NCBI GenBank assembly: GCA_016745055.1
Contig: JADGDF010000013.1
Coordinates: 1-44,506, forward strand
DNA length: 44,506 nucleotides
Origin: Thiotrichaceae bacterium
GTDB lineage: Bacteria; Pseudomonadota; Gammaproteobacteria; Beggiatoales; Beggiatoaceae
Reading direction: 5' to 3'
The notes beneath the pieces are model-generated. The model searched no databases, was not told the DNA's origin, and saw only the letters and a program-made list of their open reading frames with translations. The position numbers were made by a program, and so were the translations under genes. Below are positions 10,749-41,613 of the stretch, in pieces. Position 1 is the stretch's first letter; every line of letters starts with the position of its first letter.

Positions 10749-13700
10749 TTATTTATTCTTTTGTAAATTTATATTGGCAGAGGATTTGGTTCCTTCAAAA
10801 TCGTCTAAGCCAAAGAAGTCGCATACACTAGAAAAAACACGCTTATAGACAGCTTCCTGCTTTTCTTGTAAATTCCCAGAAGTATCTGTATGTTCTTCTG
10901 TTGCGATTTTCCTATTCGTCAAAATTTCACTGACTTTCTGGGAAAACTCAGGATTTTCCTTCATCAAAGGCAAAATGTCATCTTTTGCAATTTCGTAAAT
11001 CACAATATCTGTGATAGCAATGACAGTGGCCGCACGAGGCTCACCAGTGAATAAGGCCATTTCCCCAAAAAAGTTGCCAGCCCCTAAACGAGCGACTTCA
11101 ACCAATGAATTTTGCTCTTTACTAGTGCAAACACTTACGCTGACTGCTCCTTCAACGACAATAAACAAAGAATGTCCTTCTTCACCTTGCTTGACTACCA
11201 ATTGGTTAGATTTAAAAATATGGCAGCGTACTTGCTGGCTTAAACGTTCTTTTTGGGCTTGAGTAAAATATTGAAATACATCAATTTCTTTTAATAAAGT
11301 GATGGGTTTTGTAGCTTCTTCTTTGCCTCGAGATTTAACCCCTCTAAAGGTATGAATTTCTTGACGTTGAATGGCAGGCGCAATCCCTGCGCGATTTAAA
11401 TGAATCCAAATACGTTTCCATAGATTTTGCCGCACCATTTTCCGTTTTTTGTATTTATTGACGGAAAAAATCACAATGTAATCAGCCGCCCAATCACTGA
11501 CGCCTCGGTAGGCTACAATAGGCCCTGGATCATCTAATATTCCTTCTGTAGATAATACAGCGTCTAGTAAAATTTTTTCTACTCTTTCAGGTGGATGATG
11601 ATAATCAATATGTAAGCTAATCATTGATTTACATAAATCGCCGGTATAACTAAAATTATGAATAATCGCTTCGGACATTTGACTGTTGGGGACGCTAATA
11701 GTGTGTCCATCGCGATTTAAAAGTCGGGTAGTTCGCCAAGTCATATCGACTATACGTCCGTCGTTTTGAAAGCGACGAACTTGTATTTTAACTTTATCGC
11801 CAATACGAAAAGGTCGTTCTAAATTAATCATCACGCCAGATAATACATTTGCAATATTGTCTTTAATCGCTAAGCCGATAACGGCTGTGACAATGCCGGA
11901 AGTGGCCAGTAAATTAGTAATTGAATGTTTAAAAACAAACGCCACAATGCCAAAACTGGCAAACAAGTAAATAATGAGTGTAATAAATCCTTTGACAATC
12001 TTTGGAATTGAACGACCACTCCGTTCTTCTAAAGGAGCCAGTAAAAAATGCTTAATTAACAAGTCTAATAGAAAAGCAGGGGTTAACCACCATAAAATGT
12101 CAAAAAGAGTGTCCAACCTGTCTAAGTATTGAACAGATAAACCCGTTACAACAATCCAGCCTGCAACCGTTTGTTTAGCAAACTGCTCAGCTAAAATTAG
12201 TACACCAAATACAAGTAATAACCTTAGAAACCAAATAAGGTTAAACAGAAAACGGTATTGAGTGATAATGTCTGCTAAACGCATCAAAGCCATGAAACTT
12301 GTTACCACAGCCGTCCAAATCGCAGTATATTGTAAAAAAGGGTAAAATGCTTGTGTTTGGTAAATATCTAAAAAAGAGAATGGGTAAGTTAAGATAACTG
12401 CAAACAATATCGTTAAAGCACGTTTGAACAAGGATTTAAATTTAAAAAAGGATAAAATCATTATAAAATACAATCCACCCATCAATATCAACTCTTGCCA
12501 TGATATACCATTAATCAATATAGTTATCAAAAAAAATGCGGTAGCAATAACAATGACACGAATTAGCCAATGAATTTTGAATAAAATCAGAAATAGGGCA
12601 ATCAGTAAAACAAAATACTCTTTTTGCAATGGAATAAGATAACGCAGGCCAACTTGAGTTTCTGCAGCAACAACACCCAAATTAAAACGAGAATAGCCTT
12701 GGGTTGAATTTTTGATAGAAGTGGGATCGCCTAAAGTATCTGGTTGGAAAACATCCTGAAAGATAAAAGCATCTTTGATAAACCATTCTTTACCCAACTT
12801 TAATACTTGTTCTTGACGTAGCTTATTGCGTAGTCTCATACGGCTAGAAAACCCCATCCCAATTACATCAGGCACATAAACCATATGAGTATTAGGATTT
12901 TCACGGTGATGAAAACTAATCCCAAATAAATGTTGTTGATGAGGTAAAAAATTAGTTAAAAAATCACTACGGAAACGGCCTTCACCGTAGTATAATTGGT
13001 ATTTGAGACGACCAATCTGTTTGGTTTCCTTTAAAGTGAGTTTAACTGCTTCAACGGCATTGGTAAATTGAATATTGTTGGGATGGGTATTTCCAATAAA
13101 ACGAAACCAAAGTTTAAAATCCACTACATGCGTTAGTTCTTTGGGATTAATATCTCTAATTTTATCAATTTTGACCCCTGTGTATACAATATGCGTTTTA
13201 TACGCACGTTCTCCTTCACTCAGCGGTACAATCCAATGATTATCTATTTCTGCTTGTAAATTGGTCTGTGTTTCTGTGCCCATCATGGGTTGAAACTGGC
13301 TTAAAGCAGGCACAACTTGCTTATCTTTATACACAGCAATGTAAGGAAAGCGCAAAGAATTTCCATTTTTATCAAAATAATTAAAACCAGTAATGCTTTC
13401 AACTGCATTTTCAATAGTATTAAGGCTGGCTAAATAACTTCTAATTTTTTCACGATTGAGTTGAATTTTATCTGGTGCACTTGAAACAAGTTTAGATTTA
13501 AGTGCTTTGCCCATTATCATTGCTGCGTCATAAGCTAAAGTGGCAATAATCCAGTGAGTTACGCCCCAGCTTTCAACGGCTTCTTGGTACTGTTGACGAA
13601 AATGTTCTTTAAATTGATAAGCTTTCAAATTGGCTGTATCGCTTAAGAAAGGTGAAATGACATACATATCATCAGTGTAATTTGTTGATTTATTAGCATT

Positions 13701-14546
13701 TAAACTTTCTAATAATTCAACTTCAGTGACAAATTGATGATGTAAAAAGGAGCTGGGGCCAATGAGTACATTTTGAATATTGGCTTCTTTAAGCAAACTG
13801 ACAAATTTTGCCCCATAGCTAGCGTCAACAGCAAGTAATATTGGACTATCATTGGAATTGGATTTTAAATCGTTAATAATATCTTGTGAACGCGAAAAAA
13901 AATCACTTTGGGTGAATGACCACTGATGATTAATTGTCACACCAGTTTGCTGTGCAGTGGACTCAAATCCCTGCTTCAAGCTCAGTCCATAATCATTTTC
14001 TATATAAATAATATTGGCAGAAGTTTGTTGTAAGATATGTTTAATGGTGTAAGCAAGAAACTTAGCTTCTAAAGTCTCACTCAAGGTCATTTTAAAAAAC
14101 CAAGGATTTGCTTGAGTAATGTGAGAATCAGTCGCCGATGGTGTAATGGCTGGAATTTTGTGTTGAGCATAAATTTTTCCCCCCACCATTGCCGTTGAAG
14201 AGAGAAAATGACCTAATACCGCAACAATGCGTTTGTCTTCAGCAATTTTCTTGCTAATAATCGCTGTTTGTTTTGGGTCTGCTTGAGTATCATAGATTTT
14301 TAAAATTACCCGTTTTTGTGCCATCTCTTGTTCTTGATTCAACTGACTAAAGTAAAGTTCTATGGCATGAAGCATTAATTTACCTTGTTCTGCCAAATGG
14401 CCTGACAAAGGTAAAGCAACTGCAATATAAATGGCATTGGGGTCTTCTGTTTCATCTATATTTAAATGTACAAGGCCAATTTTGTAGAAAATACCGATGA
14501 GAACAGTGATTATCACAATAATGCGCATAGTTTTTCGACGTAGCAT
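10749..14546 (-). CDS. Putative multi-ligand channel: periplasmic-binding + pLGIC-like ectodomain + MscS + cyclic-nucleotide-binding
   Basis: A 1265-residue membrane protein. Residues 8-25 form a membrane anchor. About 38-430 is a type I periplasmic binding domain of the Leu/Ile/Val family (IYIAVALPLSG, AVLGHFLSSTA, ITPSATD). About 440-640 looks like a pentameric ligand-gated channel ectodomain: VYTGVKIDKIRDIN, VVDFKLWFRF, FLPHQQHLFGISF, EWFIKDAF, then YSRFNL and RYLIPLQ before the membrane. About 640-860 holds several helices. About 860-1090 is an MscS core (TSGIVTAVIGLAIKDNIANV, LERPFRIGDKV). About 1100-1230 is a cyclic-nucleotide domain with the intact phosphate cassette FGEMALFTGEPRAATV. 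Cyclic-nucleotide-gated MscS relatives are known; the added ectodomains suggest gating by external ligands too (inference). It has no operon partner. Confidence 0.8.
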   Translation of the reverse strand: MLRRKTMRIIVIITVLIGIFYKIGLVHLNIDETEDPNAIYIAVALPLSGHLAEQGKLMLHAIELYFSQLNQEQEMAQKRVILKIYDTQADPKQTAIISKKIAEDKRIVAVLGHFLSSTAMVGGKIYAQHKIPAITPSATDSHITQANPWFFKMTLSETLEAKFLAYTIKHILQQTSANIIYIENDYGLSLKQGFESTAQQTGVTINHQWSFTQSDFFSRSQDIINDLKSNSNDSPILLAVDASYGAKFVSLLKEANIQNVLIGPSSFLHHQFVTEVELLESLNANKSTNYTDDMYVISPFLSDTANLKAYQFKEHFRQQYQEAVESWGVTHWIIATLAYDAAMIMGKALKSKLVSSAPDKIQLNREKIRSYLASLNTIENAVESITGFNYFDKNGNSLRFPYIAVYKDKQVVPALSQFQPMMGTETQTNLQAEIDNHWIVPLSEGERAYKTHIVYTGVKIDKIRDINPKELTHVVDFKLWFRFIGNTHPNNIQFTNAVEAVKLTLKETKQIGRLKYQLYYGEGRFRSDFLTNFLPHQQHLFGISFHHRENPNTHMVYVPDVIGMGFSSRMRLRNKLRQEQVLKLGKEWFIKDAFIFQDVFQPDTLGDPTSIKNSTQGYSRFNLGVVAAETQVGLRYLIPLQKEYFVLLIALFLILFKIHWLIRVIVIATAFFLITILINGISWQELILMGGLYFIMILSFFKFKSLFKRALTILFAVILTYPFSFLDIYQTQAFYPFLQYTAIWTAVVTSFMALMRLADIITQYRFLFNLIWFLRLLLVFGVLILAEQFAKQTVAGWIVVTGLSVQYLDRLDTLFDILWWLTPAFLLDLLIKHFLLAPLEERSGRSIPKIVKGFITLIIYLFASFGIVAFVFKHSITNLLATSGIVTAVIGLAIKDNIANVLSGVMINLERPFRIGDKVKIQVRRFQNDGRIVDMTWRTTRLLNRDGHTISVPNSQMSEAIIHNFSYTGDLCKSMISLHIDYHHPPERVEKILLDAVLSTEGILDDPGPIVAYRGVSDWAADYIVIFSVNKYKKRKMVRQNLWKRIWIHLNRAGIAPAIQRQEIHTFRGVKSRGKEEATKPITLLKEIDVFQYFTQAQKERLSQQVRCHIFKSNQLVVKQGEEGHSLFIVVEGAVSVSVCTSKEQNSLVEVARLGAGNFFGEMALFTGEPRAATVIAITDIVIYEIAKDDILPLMKENPEFSQKVSEILTNRKIATEEHTDTSGNLQEKQEAVYKRVFSSVCDFFGLDDFEGTKSSANINLQKNK

Positions 14547-22727: not shown

Positions 22728-25700
22728 TTATAATTCCAATTCTTTCAATTTTAACACAATCCCTACCGTCTCCAAACTAACCGCCACTACTTTCCCAACC
22801 AATTGTAATATATATTCTTCGTCATCTTTGCGGTTGGGATTATTTACAATGCCGCTTCTTTTATCGGTTTTAATTCGGTATTGATCGATAATCCATTCTA
22901 GGGCAGAACGGTTGCCTAGTTTATAGTCGAAGGCTGGTTTGGGGATGCCAGTTAGGGTTAGGAAATTATTGTAGATTAGTTGGGTTTTATCTTTGGAGAG
23001 CCTCATTTTTTCTACTTTTAGGCTGAAGGGGTATTTGGGATTTTCTATTTGTGCTAGTTGGTAGGGTTGAATTTGTTCGTAATTTAGGTGGAGTTCGGCG
23101 AGTTTTTGACCAGCTTGAGCGAAGTCCCAGAATGTTGGGGTGAGTGGTAGGCGTGGGAGTTCTCGTTTTAGGTTTTGGGCGTATTTTTCTCGGTATTGGG
23201 GTTGGTGGAGCAAACTGTAAACGTAGTGGAATATGTCCCATTTGGTTATTTTTTTATCTTGGTAGTGTTGTTGCCAGTGGTTTAATGCCCAGTCGGTGAT
23301 GTTTTCGGTGCGATTGCTGCCGTCTTCGTTGTAGGTGTAGAAGGGAAATGCTTGACCATTGCGTCCGCCTATACATAAATCTGGAATACAATCAGTTATT
23401 TGTACTACAAACGGAATTTGTGAATGATTAGTACAATAAATAACCCTATTTTCCGCTTCTGTTTCTGGAGTGGGGAAAATCTTTGGAAAATTATAAACAT
23501 CTTCATTAAAAATTCTTTCAAAATAGTAAAACCGTTTGGTAAAAGGACGGTACAATGAATGACGAATTTTTTCTTCATTAAAAACGACTTCTTTACCACG
23601 TAACAAGCTTCTTTTAGTGTACCGAATCCATTTCAAGACTCTTTCATCGATGTTTAAAAAACCTTCAATTTCTTTGGGTTGTCCTTTGTGTATCCATCTA
23701 TTTTGTTCAGAACCGTAGTTTTCTACCATTCCTTGAACTATTTCAACGAGTTTAGCGGAATCAAAATTGTACAGATAAGCATCACTGTTAGTTTTCACAC
23801 CGTTACTGAAAATCTTAAAAACAACTCCCTCAACTTCTTTCTTAGTTGCTTTCGTTTCCTTTGTACCCAATGGAACAAATTTATCAAATTCTTCATGCAG
23901 TCCTTCAGTTAGCCAGATGTGTTTTTTGTCCGCACACACAAGTTGCATTGGAATACCAGAATAACTTTTAGCAGAGTCTAAGAAATTTTTCTTGTCATGG
24001 GCCTTCAAGTAATCATCAATGGAATATAACCATATTTCGGCATTTTTGTTAGCCAATTGTTTGCTTTTTATGAAAAATGTAATACCAACACTTACCCTAA
24101 TACTATCATCAAAAACATTACCACCTTCTTGACGACGACGTTCTCCTGAAGTACGAGCATTACCTTTTAAATTAATATGATAAATCTTAGAAAAATCTTG
24201 AGCCAAATGCTTCCGCATCCCATCAAACGCAATGCTATCTAAAAAACTATTATTAGTCACAAACGCAACAATGCCTTCATCTTTAATTCGCTCAGAAGCC
24301 CATTTAATCGCTTTCACATAAGGATCGGACAAAGAATTTTTCAAAGTCGCCTTAGAATCTTTAGCATAAGTTTCTTTCACCCAATTCCCTACAGTTTTAT
24401 AAACTTGATTCTTATTATTATCATTCTCATTATTTTGACTTGCATTATAAGGCGGATTGCCAATAATAACGAAAAAATCAGTTGCTTTTTGCTTCTCAAC
24501 CCGCTCAGTATTTTCTGGTGCAAATAGATCAGGTTGTTTATCCTCCACCAACTCAAACGTATCTGCCAAACAAATTCCCTCAAATGGCAGATACCGCCCC
24601 ATCACATCCATATACTGATGCTCAATATTCATACAAGCCAAATAATAGGGCAACAACATGATTTCATTGCAATGCAACTCATTTTTATACTTATAATCCA
24701 ACTTCATTTTTCCATGCGAACCCAACGCCCGAATCACTCGACTAATAAAATTACCCGTTCCCACAAACGGATCTAAAATATGCACCCCTTTATCCGCCAA
24801 CGACTTACCAAAATCCTGCTGTAAAATCTCCTCCACCGACCGCACCATAAAATCTACAATCGGCTGGGGCGTATAAACAATTCCATGCGTATCAGCCACT
24901 TTAACCGAAAAACCCTGAAAAAATCGCTCATAAATCGTATTCAAAAAATGCTGCTTATAGCTATATTCACTAATCGTGGCCGCCACCCCTTCCAAAGCCT
25001 TATAAAAATACTGCAACTCCGCAAAAAAAGCATCTCGATTAAAAGACTTAGCCGTTAATTTCTCAATCACCACCTCAATTTCACGAGCAATAATATTGCG
25101 TTTAGCAAACTCTGAATAACTAAACAAATTTCGAAAAATCCGCTCTGTCAATAAATGCTGAATTAACATTTCCTCAATCGCAGCGTCAGCCAAATTCGGA
25201 TTAATCGCCTGCCGACATTGTTCCGCAAAACTATTAAAAGCTTTGTTAAACGGCTTATCTTTCTGCAAAGCCGTCCGAATCACTGCCAACAACCTAGCGC
25301 CCAACTCCGGCACACGTTCCTTAAACTCAATCGCCGCTTTGTCCCACGCATCATATTCTGGACGCTTAAAATCAAAAAACTGCTCAACCACTGCCAGCAA
25401 ATTTTCTGGTTTAGCCAACGGGACATCCAACACAACTTCACCATTTTGAATCAGAATGGCATGACTAGGCTTTTGAAATACAATATTATCTTGCGGATAG
25501 CCTTTGCCATATAACTTCTCCTGAATGGCAGGCTCCAATTTAACTGACTCCCTCTTCGCTTCCCAATAACCACGAGGAATTTGAGACTCATCAAACAAAG
25601 TGCCATCCAAACGGATAGCTTGCAAAGTCTGCTCTTGAATTAAAGTCCAATTCCGAGATTGGGCATAAGCCTCTAAAATATGTTGAAAAGCCTGCTTAAC

Positions 25701-25793
25701 GGTATCTTCCTGCGTTTGGTTAGCCCGCTCAAAAGCTTGCAATTCCTGATAGTAATTCTTGATTATTTTATGGTTGGGCGTTATTTTTAGCAT
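22728..25793 (-). CDS. Type ISP/IIG-like single-chain restriction-modification enzyme
   Basis: 1021 residues combining nuclease and adenine methyltransferase. Near the N-terminus RLDGTLFDES followed by GYWEAKRE gives a PD-(D/E)xK nuclease site. The centre has SAM motif I DPFVGTGNF and catalytic motif IV NPPYN. The C-terminal third (TKWDIFHYVYSLLHQPQYREKYAQNLKRELPRLP ... YKLGNRSALEWIIDQYRIKTDKRSGI) is the type ISP C-terminal domain that reads the target. The helicase of true type ISP enzymes is missing, so it is closer to a IIG layout. It would cut and methylate DNA by itself. The 3' end is duplicated in degenerate form at 20385-21038. Confidence 0.88.
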   Translation of the reverse strand: MLKITPNHKIIKNYYQELQAFERANQTQEDTVKQAFQHILEAYAQSRNWTLIQEQTLQAIRLDGTLFDESQIPRGYWEAKRESVKLEPAIQEKLYGKGYPQDNIVFQKPSHAILIQNGEVVLDVPLAKPENLLAVVEQFFDFKRPEYDAWDKAAIEFKERVPELGARLLAVIRTALQKDKPFNKAFNSFAEQCRQAINPNLADAAIEEMLIQHLLTERIFRNLFSYSEFAKRNIIAREIEVVIEKLTAKSFNRDAFFAELQYFYKALEGVAATISEYSYKQHFLNTIYERFFQGFSVKVADTHGIVYTPQPIVDFMVRSVEEILQQDFGKSLADKGVHILDPFVGTGNFISRVIRALGSHGKMKLDYKYKNELHCNEIMLLPYYLACMNIEHQYMDVMGRYLPFEGICLADTFELVEDKQPDLFAPENTERVEKQKATDFFVIIGNPPYNASQNNENDNNKNQVYKTVGNWVKETYAKDSKATLKNSLSDPYVKAIKWASERIKDEGIVAFVTNNSFLDSIAFDGMRKHLAQDFSKIYHINLKGNARTSGERRRQEGGNVFDDSIRVSVGITFFIKSKQLANKNAEIWLYSIDDYLKAHDKKNFLDSAKSYSGIPMQLVCADKKHIWLTEGLHEEFDKFVPLGTKETKATKKEVEGVVFKIFSNGVKTNSDAYLYNFDSAKLVEIVQGMVENYGSEQNRWIHKGQPKEIEGFLNIDERVLKWIRYTKRSLLRGKEVVFNEEKIRHSLYRPFTKRFYYFERIFNEDVYNFPKIFPTPETEAENRVIYCTNHSQIPFVVQITDCIPDLCIGGRNGQAFPFYTYNEDGSNRTENITDWALNHWQQHYQDKKITKWDIFHYVYSLLHQPQYREKYAQNLKRELPRLPLTPTFWDFAQAGQKLAELHLNYEQIQPYQLAQIENPKYPFSLKVEKMRLSKDKTQLIYNNFLTLTGIPKPAFDYKLGNRSALEWIIDQYRIKTDKRSGIVNNPNRKDDEEYILQLVGKVVAVSLETVGIVLKLKELEL

Positions 25794-25863: not shown

Positions 25864-25946
25864 TGCGGGGACAAGTTTACAACCTGCACCCAAACGTTTT
25901 AGCAAACTTTGAAATTCATCAAAACGTCGGATCAAGGTTACAAACC
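25864..25946. repeat. Left part of a palindromic repeat split by an insertion
   Basis: Matches the first ~83 bp of the intact 97-bp repeat at 41434-41530 (ACAACCTGCACCC, then CGTTTT, AAATTCATCAAAACG, GGTTACAAACC). It breaks at GGTTACAAACC (25936-25946), exactly where the DUF559 element begins. The remainder continues at 26439. Confidence 0.75.
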
Positions 25947-26438
25947 AAAGGTATCTACACAAGTTGTTTTATCCCCCCTCCTCGCAGGAGGGGGTTAGGG
26001 GGTGGTGATAAAAACAGTATTCTTTAATATTTCAAACCAAGTTTTGCTTTAATAAATATTGGGCAATTTCTTCTTTTACAGCCTCTAACTCCATAAATAC
26101 TTGGTGATTCCAAAAACGCATTACTTGATAGCCGAATCTCTCTAAATATTCTGTGCGTTGGGCATCAGCTTGTTGCTGTTCTGCATGTTGCCCACCATCC
26201 AGCTCAATAATCAGCTTAGCTTCAATACAAACAAAATCAACAATATAATGCTCAAAGACTTGTTGACGGCGAAACTTATAGCCCAGCATTTGCCGTTTAC
26301 GTAGAGGCTGCCAAAGTAAACGCTCGGCATCTGTAGGTGCATTGCGTAAATTTCTTGCCCGTTATTCACCACCCCCTAACCCCCTCCTGCAAGGAGGAGG
26401 GATAAAACCCGTTGTTACCAACTTGTGTAGATACCTTT
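25947..26438. mobile_element. 492-bp DUF559-carrying element with 20-bp perfect inverted ends
   Basis: The ends AAAGGTATCTACACAAGTTG (25947-25966) and its exact complement (26419-26438) enclose a second inverted pair of G/C-runs (GGAGGGGGTTAGGGGGTGG type, about 25971-26010 and 26368-26402) and a DUF559 reading frame. It is flanked by GGTTACAAACC (25936-25946) and GGTTAAAAACC (26439-26449), an 11-bp near-perfect target duplication inside a palindromic repeat whose uninterrupted copy is at 41434. No transposase is encoded, so it would be mobilised in trans or by the DUF559 nuclease (inference). Confidence 0.75.
26032..26289 (-). CDS. DUF559 Vsr-like endonuclease, apparently 5'-truncated
   Basis: 85 residues from the ATG at 26289. 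MLGYKFRRQQVFEHYIVDFVCIEAKLIIELDGGQH and YLERFGYQVMRFWN are the core of DUF559, a Vsr-like PD-(D/E)xK fold (catalytic D and E in VDFVC/IELDGGQH). Family-like sequence continues in frame upstream without a start codon (RNLRNAPTDAERLLWQPLRKRQ, up to 26361) until a TAA at 26362-26364. The normal N-terminus has therefore been lost, and either the short form or nothing is made. It is the only gene of the element around it. Confidence 0.75.
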   Translation of the reverse strand: MLGYKFRRQQVFEHYIVDFVCIEAKLIIELDGGQHAEQQQADAQRTEYLERFGYQVMRFWNHQVFMELEAVKEEIAQYLLKQNLV

Positions 26439-26461
26439 GGTTAAAAACCTTGACCCACGAG
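26439..26461. repeat. Right part of the palindromic repeat split by the DUF559 element
   Basis: GGTTAAAAACCTTGACCCACGAG completes the repeat whose left part is 25864-25946. Compare GGTTACAAACCTTGACCCGC in the intact copy near 41510-41530. Confidence 0.7.
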
Positions 26462-41433: not shown

Positions 41434-41530
41434 CTTCGCGGGTGCAGGTTTGTAACCTGCACCCGAACGTTTTCAGACTCCGAAATTCATCAAAACATTC
41501 GGGCCAAGGTTACAAACCTTGACCCGCAAG
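41434..41530. repeat. 97-bp palindromic repeat, intact copy
   Basis: Ends are inverted relatives (GCGGGTGCAGGTTTGTAACC and its near-complement at 41508-41527). The left arm itself forms a perfect 11-bp hairpin, GGGTGCAGGTT/AACCTGCACCC (41440-41464). The other copy, at 25864-25946 plus 26439-26461, is interrupted by the DUF559 element. Confidence 0.75.
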
Positions 41531-41560
41531 TACTTTATCAAGGTAGAATTGACGGGCACA

Positions 41561-41613
41561 GTAGGGTGCGTCTTACGCACCGAAAAACGCCTGGTGCGTG
41601 AGACGCACCCTAC
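41561..41613. repeat. REP-like GTAGGGTGCGTC hairpin
   Basis: GTAGGGTGCGTCTTACGCACC (41561-41581, written here in parts: GTAGGGTGCGTCT + TACGCACC) pairs with 41593-41613 with one mismatch over an 11-nt loop. It is a strong REP-type stem found once in this window. Confidence 0.75.

Follow-up and report, generated by a model that had tools for sequence, protein, structure and literature searches.

A DUF559 nuclease cassette inside an IS4-type element of a Thiotrichaceae bacterium: probably two nested mobile units

Solo G/C palindromic repeats are widespread in bacterial genomes. The closest described counterpart of the arrangement reported here is the REPIN/RAYT system with its REPtrons and TIRtrons (Bertels and Rainey, 2011, PMC3116915; PMC3733652), and at least one class of palindromic repeats, the CGTC repeats, has no known mobilising enzyme of its own (PMC3733652). 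The protein family DUF559 had previously been assigned to the EDxHD homing family, and the homing endonuclease I-Bth0305I carries a long additional DNA-binding region (PMC3943268). In Caulobacter, the DUF559 protein VsrA has a functional link with an orphan cytosine methyltransferase (PMC12907096). No description linking DUF559, COG2852 or ycjD to palindromic repeats was found in open-licence full text, and the novelty of the DUF559-hairpin association is provisional. Here we describe a locus within a stretch of 44,506 nucleotides (the window) from a Thiotrichaceae bacterium (contig JADGDF010000013.1). Two mobile units are probably nested at this locus, an IS4-type outer element and a REPIN-like cassette of DUF559 gene and hairpins which would be copied via cutting by its nuclease.

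The outer element and its IS4-type relatives

The exact complementarity of 20 bp between positions 25947-25966 and 26419-26438, noticed in the initial annotation, was confirmed, and a chance origin of these ends was excluded by comparison with shuffled sequence (expectation of 0.02 matches). The pairing runs one base pair further (CAAAGG...CCTTTG), so that the element covers 25946-26439 (no strand assigned) and measures 494 bp instead of the 492 bp given before. Compared with the intact copies, 11 bp are missing directly after its left terminal inverted repeat CAAAGGTATCTACACAAGTTG (25946-25966, plus strand), while the right one is retained as a full 38-bp arm (26402-26439, minus strand). A search of the genome for other copies with these ends yielded DUF559-free sites and two longer copies of 532 bp each (C192:6392-6923 and C78:4275-4806), both with about 91% identity to the window stretch. 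All three DUF559-bearing copies are bounded by 9-bp duplications, perfect in the two longer ones (GTTTGTAAC, AATCTGCAC) and matching at 8 of 9 positions in the window, where GTTACAAAC (25937-25945, plus strand) and GTTAAAAAC (26440-26448, plus strand) show the single mismatch already seen between the flanks. Insertion with target duplication was thereby supported, but the duplication measures 9 bp and not 11 bp as first proposed, because this is its length in the two perfect cases; the extra bases of the earlier 11-mer stem from the palindromic nature of the target itself. On the basis of the two 532-bp copies with their common ends and duplications, the window copy was classified as a decayed non-autonomous IS4-type element carrying a DUF559 cassette.

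All three insertions lie in dispersed repeats with GGTTTGTAACC-type palindromes, apparently members of a single family. The stretch at 41434-41530 (no strand assigned), regarded in the initial annotation as the uninterrupted target, is indeed without an insertion, but it represents a paralogous copy of the family hosting the element and not the orthologous empty site. It is adjoined by an inverted repeat TAGGGTGCGTCTTACGCACC...GGTGCGTGAGACGCACCCTA at 41558-41613, probably another dispersed repeat family. The outer ends CAAAGGTATCTACACAAG were also found to bound a decayed DDE transposase copy and DUF559-free sites, three of them fragments with a common transposase-like C-terminus and one a 118-bp MITE; most DUF559-free sites again adjoin a GGTTTGTAAC-type repeat. 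A scan of genome contigs with one protein yielded two loci only. At a further locus (G000:C289) an HNH-nuclease-like ORF adjoins a fragment with an outer IS4-type end.

The window element contains no transposase, as had been stated before, and transposases with such ends were found elsewhere. A decayed copy with related ends is present in the same genome on C172, with an end CAAAGGAATCTACCCAA directly after GGTTACAAAC; its fragment matched PF14706 and PF01609 weakly, under both cut-offs. In a relative from another genome, an ORF beside the end CATAGGTATCTACACAAG carries the motif YYWRWNIESWFKLLK, and its homologues in the genome of the window, the C172 copy among them, are decayed. A full-length relative, intact with 1434 bp, was detected on a Citrobacter plasmid. 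It shows matching ends (CATAAGAATCTACACA/CATAGGCATCTACACA), a perfect 9-bp duplication and a DDE_Tnp_1 domain reaching the Pfam cut-off. Its best transposase models in NCBIfam were those of IS4, with 63.8 and 80.9 bits at a curated cut-off of 160, and since these scores stay under the cut-off we use the looser label IS4-type. Terminal inverted repeats in common with a DDE transposase-bearing element, and a target duplication as long as that of this element (9 bp), were both looked for and present. Given the agreement of ends and duplication with the full-length relative, the window element is best read as a non-autonomous derivative of the IS4-type group which carries the nuclease cassette as its cargo. 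Within this genome, an IS4-type system most likely mobilised the three copies sharing the 20-bp ends as cargo, and the inner cassette has apparently spread here only as part of the outer element.

Rfam reported no match within the window. The large ORF adjoining the element (22728-25793) carries Type ISP restriction-modification domains, and Pfam reports no N-terminal nuclease or helicase domain for it. Another ORF of the window, with 1265 aa (10749-14546), represents an unusual fusion of a periplasmic ligand-binding domain, an MscS-type channel and a cyclic-nucleotide-binding domain.

Hairpin units, mobility and conservation of the DUF559 cassette

The second, inner inverted pair of G/C runs described around the gene was likewise found. 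The left unit (25974-26008, minus strand; fold z -2.6) consists of the hairpin CCCCCTCCTCGCAGGAGGGGG with a tail TTAGGGGGTGGTGA pointing to the gene, the right unit (26366-26400, plus strand; fold z -2.3) of the tail TCACCACCCCCTAA and the hairpin CCCCCTCCTGCAAGGAGGAGG. The gene enclosed by them (26032-26361, minus strand) had been correctly recognised as a DUF559 nuclease gene, with 145 bits to PF04480 at a curated cut-off of 20.6 and one stop inside, but in the window it is a broken remnant of 109 residues plus stop: the start region including the start codon is deleted, and an in-frame stop lies immediately upstream. The copy on C78 encodes an intact DUF559 protein of 116 aa, which comprises the catalytic domain only, the long DNA-binding region being absent. 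Among 62 proteins with a median identity of 48%, E20, D49, E60, D62, H66, D73 and R76 (numbering of the C78 protein) are invariant, and E20, D49, D62, H66 and D73 follow the EDxHD pattern. The window protein was modelled with AlphaFold2 (mean pLDDT 86), and the model matched the fold of 3hrl from N. gonorrhoeae (Z 16.8), the catalytic domain of I-Bth0305I (3r3p; Z 12.4 over 94 residues) and E. coli Vsr (Z 10.7).

A further DUF559 gene, the fourth in this genome (C328), is without outer ends and lies between several CCACCCCCNARCCCCCTCC hairpin units. The layout of a DUF559 gene between such units was also observed in relatives and across Pseudomonadota, as well as on plasmids from Deinococcus, cyanobacteria and others; DUF559 genes with units occur in Pseudomonadota, Deinococcota and Cyanobacteriota. 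Using at least 8 paired bases as criterion, a G/C hairpin was found no more than 250 bp away from 58 of the 63 compact DUF559 loci, and 27 loci have one on each side. The 63 loci are in part dependent on one another, since eight belong to a single genus and three represent the window's own element. The corresponding controls gave 2 of 53 for stretches at a distance of about 1 kb and 1 of 18 for genes carrying DUF559-type domains of other kinds. The inverted-repeat score between both flanks had a median of 16, compared to 8 for distant stretches. One unit pattern was counted against DUF559 in 299 genomes without conditioning on position: 47 genomes had both, 30 DUF559 only, 14 the unit only and 208 neither (odds ratio 23), and by genus the corresponding counts were 31, 16, 8 and 99 (odds ratio 24), with phylogenetic non-independence and G+C content as caveats. 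The reversed unit pattern, used as a control, occurred once across all genomes. The tested pattern is thus absent from 30 of 77 DUF559 genomes; other lineages use unit sequences of a different kind. DUF559 was present in 3 records only of the phage genomes, which argues against phages as the main carrier in that collection.

Comparison of sequences across genomes demonstrated the association of the cassette with hairpin units, and likewise its mobility, its miniature forms and strong purifying selection on its gene with an invariant active site. Occupied and empty sites, whose comparison had been proposed at the outset, were found for the inner cassette in two genera. In the alphaproteobacterial-type genus g125, the cassette lies between convergent genes in G233; this site is empty in seven of the examined congeners (32-41 bp between the two reference points), and other congeners have other inserts there. 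Eight copies of the G233-type cassette from three genomes, one of them truncated at one end, lie at unrelated loci with sharp boundaries and unalignable flanks. Their arms of about 100 bp form double hairpins (TIRs; fold z -6.3). The left arms are 96-100% identical between copies, and the genes have diverged with a dS of 0.4-1.9 and a dN/dS of 0.05-0.22. As the arms are near-identical despite the divergence of the genes, either both arm sequence and protein are constrained or the arms were homogenised. The cassette also occupies different junctions of the hpa operon in different species of Deinococcus; the oxidoreductase-hpaE junction is occupied in strain NW-56 and empty in D. deserti, D. ficus, D. 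radiophilus and D. proteolyticus. A target duplication of the inner cassette was not definable, the intergenic junctions of g125 and Deinococcus being too divergent between species.

The empty-site test in Azospirillum showed the cassette kept in all close full-stretch matches, and no other place in A. lipoferum was found to have the two cassette flanks side by side. With the DUF559 cassette as query, 19-39 separate places per Azospirillum replicon were matched, which suggests that these replicons carry many solo units. E. coli was considered as a further occupied/empty pair and rejected: strains free of ycjD carry the eef efflux operon at that place (PMC12817139), and since this operon is an alternative allele, the site is not a clean empty one. 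Between sapF and fabI, ycjD with its units and the efflux operon were observed as alternative alleles of one locus. At least 80% of the ycjD stretch was present in 3361 of 5426 E. coli genomes, and some cassettes, such as that of ycjD, look long-resident at a single site.

Gene-less doublets of units were found at unrelated loci in G203, where five aligned doublets with unrelated flanks have conserved ends and variable interiors, as expected of miniature forms; similar pairs occur in G100. One gene-less doublet in G100 (C3:25300-25650) lies in frame inside a coding gene which resembles uracil-DNA glycosylase (Pfam UDG, weak, under the cut-off). It is reminiscent of the in-frame palindromic elements of Rickettsia. 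Moreover, open frames of 270-274 codons in three genomes (G251, G302 and G228) join a DUF559 gene and its units in frame to a CbiG C-terminal (cobalamin synthesis) domain, which follows downstream.

Proposed mechanism and rival explanations

The initial annotation had left DUF559 as either cargo or mobility factor of a selfish class. Both parts hold, in different layers. Cargo most likely describes its place in the outer layer of this genome; in the inner layer, where the cassette is a mobile unit in its own right across bacteria, the nuclease is the likely, still putative mobility factor. We propose that a transposase recognising CAAAGGTATCTACACAAG-type ends moved the outer element in trans, and that the insertion would have left the 9-bp duplications with a preference for the palindromic GGTTTGTAACC repeats of the genome. 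The cargo is, on this reading, a member of a widespread REPIN-like element in which a DUF559 nuclease of 110-130 aa, with a Vsr/EDxHD-homing fold and complete active site, lies between inverted G/C hairpin units, and the gene-less unit pairs scattered in the same genomes are its miniature forms. The nuclease may introduce a cut or nick into the hairpin units or the target, and repair of the break may copy the whole unit-gene-unit cassette in a homing-like or REPIN-like manner, so that DUF559 would stand in for the HUH transposase RAYT. Several observations count against this proposal: 30 of 77 DUF559 genomes have no match to the tested unit pattern, 14 genomes have units but no DUF559, no target duplication could be assigned to the cassette, its spread in the window genome seems confined to the outer element, some copies look long-resident, and the protein has no counterpart of the long DNA-binding regions of I-Bth0305I.

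Three other explanations were weighed. DUF559 could be a passenger: RAYT-like HUH (Y1) transposases would move the G/C palindromes as ordinary REP/REPIN-type repeats, and DUF559 genes would often become trapped between these. Inverted doublets, hairpins and dispersed solo copies do match the REPIN organisation (PMC3116915), a GGGGWSAS motif, to which the unit sequence GGGGTGAG fits, occurs in the TIRs of some RAYT-like genes (PMC3733652), and seven unit-rich genomes are without DUF559. However, a Y1 transposase was absent (E<=0.001) from 11 of 20 unit-rich genomes, and none of the fetched Y1 loci is flanked by units, compared to 58 of 63 DUF559 genes. RAYT as the mover is disfavoured by these two observations, and we regard the passenger explanation as rather improbable. 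The outer layer alone would matter if an IS4-type MITE had caught a random gene and the G/C repeats belonged to the MITE. All three copies of this genome with a G/C-flanked close homologue do lie inside outer ends, but the gene on C328 has the units and lacks these ends, and the outer end was found in just 7 of 299 genomes (at most one mismatch), while DUF559 with units spans three phyla. The occurrence of the inner element without outer ends contradicts such an explanation and leaves it very improbable indeed.

Finally, DUF559 might be a host or defence nuclease for Vsr-type mismatch repair or restriction, the palindromes being terminators or regulatory hairpins and the copies being swapped by ordinary recombination. 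This would agree with the Vsr-like fold, with the tie of VsrA of Caulobacter to an orphan cytosine methyltransferase (PMC12907096) and with two cyanobacterial DUF559 copies adjoining BREX or DUF1156 genes. On the other hand, the remaining annotated neighbourhoods seen (a few kb each) contain metabolic or transport genes and no cytosine methyltransferase, although unlinked pairs are known to exist, and the match to the Vsr profile TIGR00632 is weak (15 bits, cut-off 97.85, E 0.022). A selfish element accounts better for the up to eight DUF559 copies per genome and for multi-copy elements with sharp boundaries and near-identical TIRs. A host function for the cassette as a whole is therefore unlikely in our judgement, and single-copy members such as E. 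coli ycjD may have a host-repair role.

The best reading of the inner cassette thus is, from the sequence comparisons, a REPIN/RAYT-like selfish element using a Vsr/EDxHD-type nuclease. A wider generalisation, which we consider about as likely as not, is that compact DUF559 nucleases with C/G-run hairpin units constitute an autonomous class of mobile elements in at least three phyla, in which the nuclease and not a transposase drives the copying of palindromes, with many solo G/C palindromic repeats as non-autonomous offspring. If true, a dedicated nuclease would give repeats of this kind an origin, a family of "unknown function" including YcjD of E. coli would gain a role, and the REPIN/RAYT lifestyle would be served by a second enzyme unrelated to the first. 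The model is open to direct test, as empty and occupied sites, a protein of 116 aa and the solved structure of a relative (3hrl) exist. The palindromic repeats RIME1 and Box C are, we assume, possibly solo units of the same kind; a link of either to DUF559 was not found in open-licence papers.

Comparison with known systems

REPIN/RAYT is the nearest analogue of the DUF559 cassette in behaviour. Each places one small nuclease gene between palindromic units in inverted orientation, is accompanied by gene-less inverted doublets elsewhere in the genome (for the cassette, in G203 and G100), and persists over the long term. They differ in the two defining features of REPIN/RAYT: its enzyme is a Y1 HUH transposase, that of the cassette a PD-(D/E)XK-type nuclease, and its GTAG tag is conserved, whereas the window units and most loci have no GTAG and the tag varies between copies where present. 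With the EDxHD homing endonucleases (I-Bth0305I), the cassette protein has the catalytic fold and the E..D..x..H..D residues in common. In contrast to them, it is free-standing, intergenic and flanked by palindromes, with about 116 aa and no long DNA-binding part, and lies outside introns and inteins. Vsr of E. coli also has this fold, and VsrA of Caulobacter belongs to DUF559 as well, but DUF559 of the cassette is multi-copy with TIRs, and most of the neighbourhoods seen do not link it to a methyltransferase. IS4-family insertion sequences and MITEs have in common with the outer element the ends, the 9-bp duplication and a DDE transposase with the same kind of ends, whereas the window copy is free of a transposase and carries another mobile unit as its cargo.
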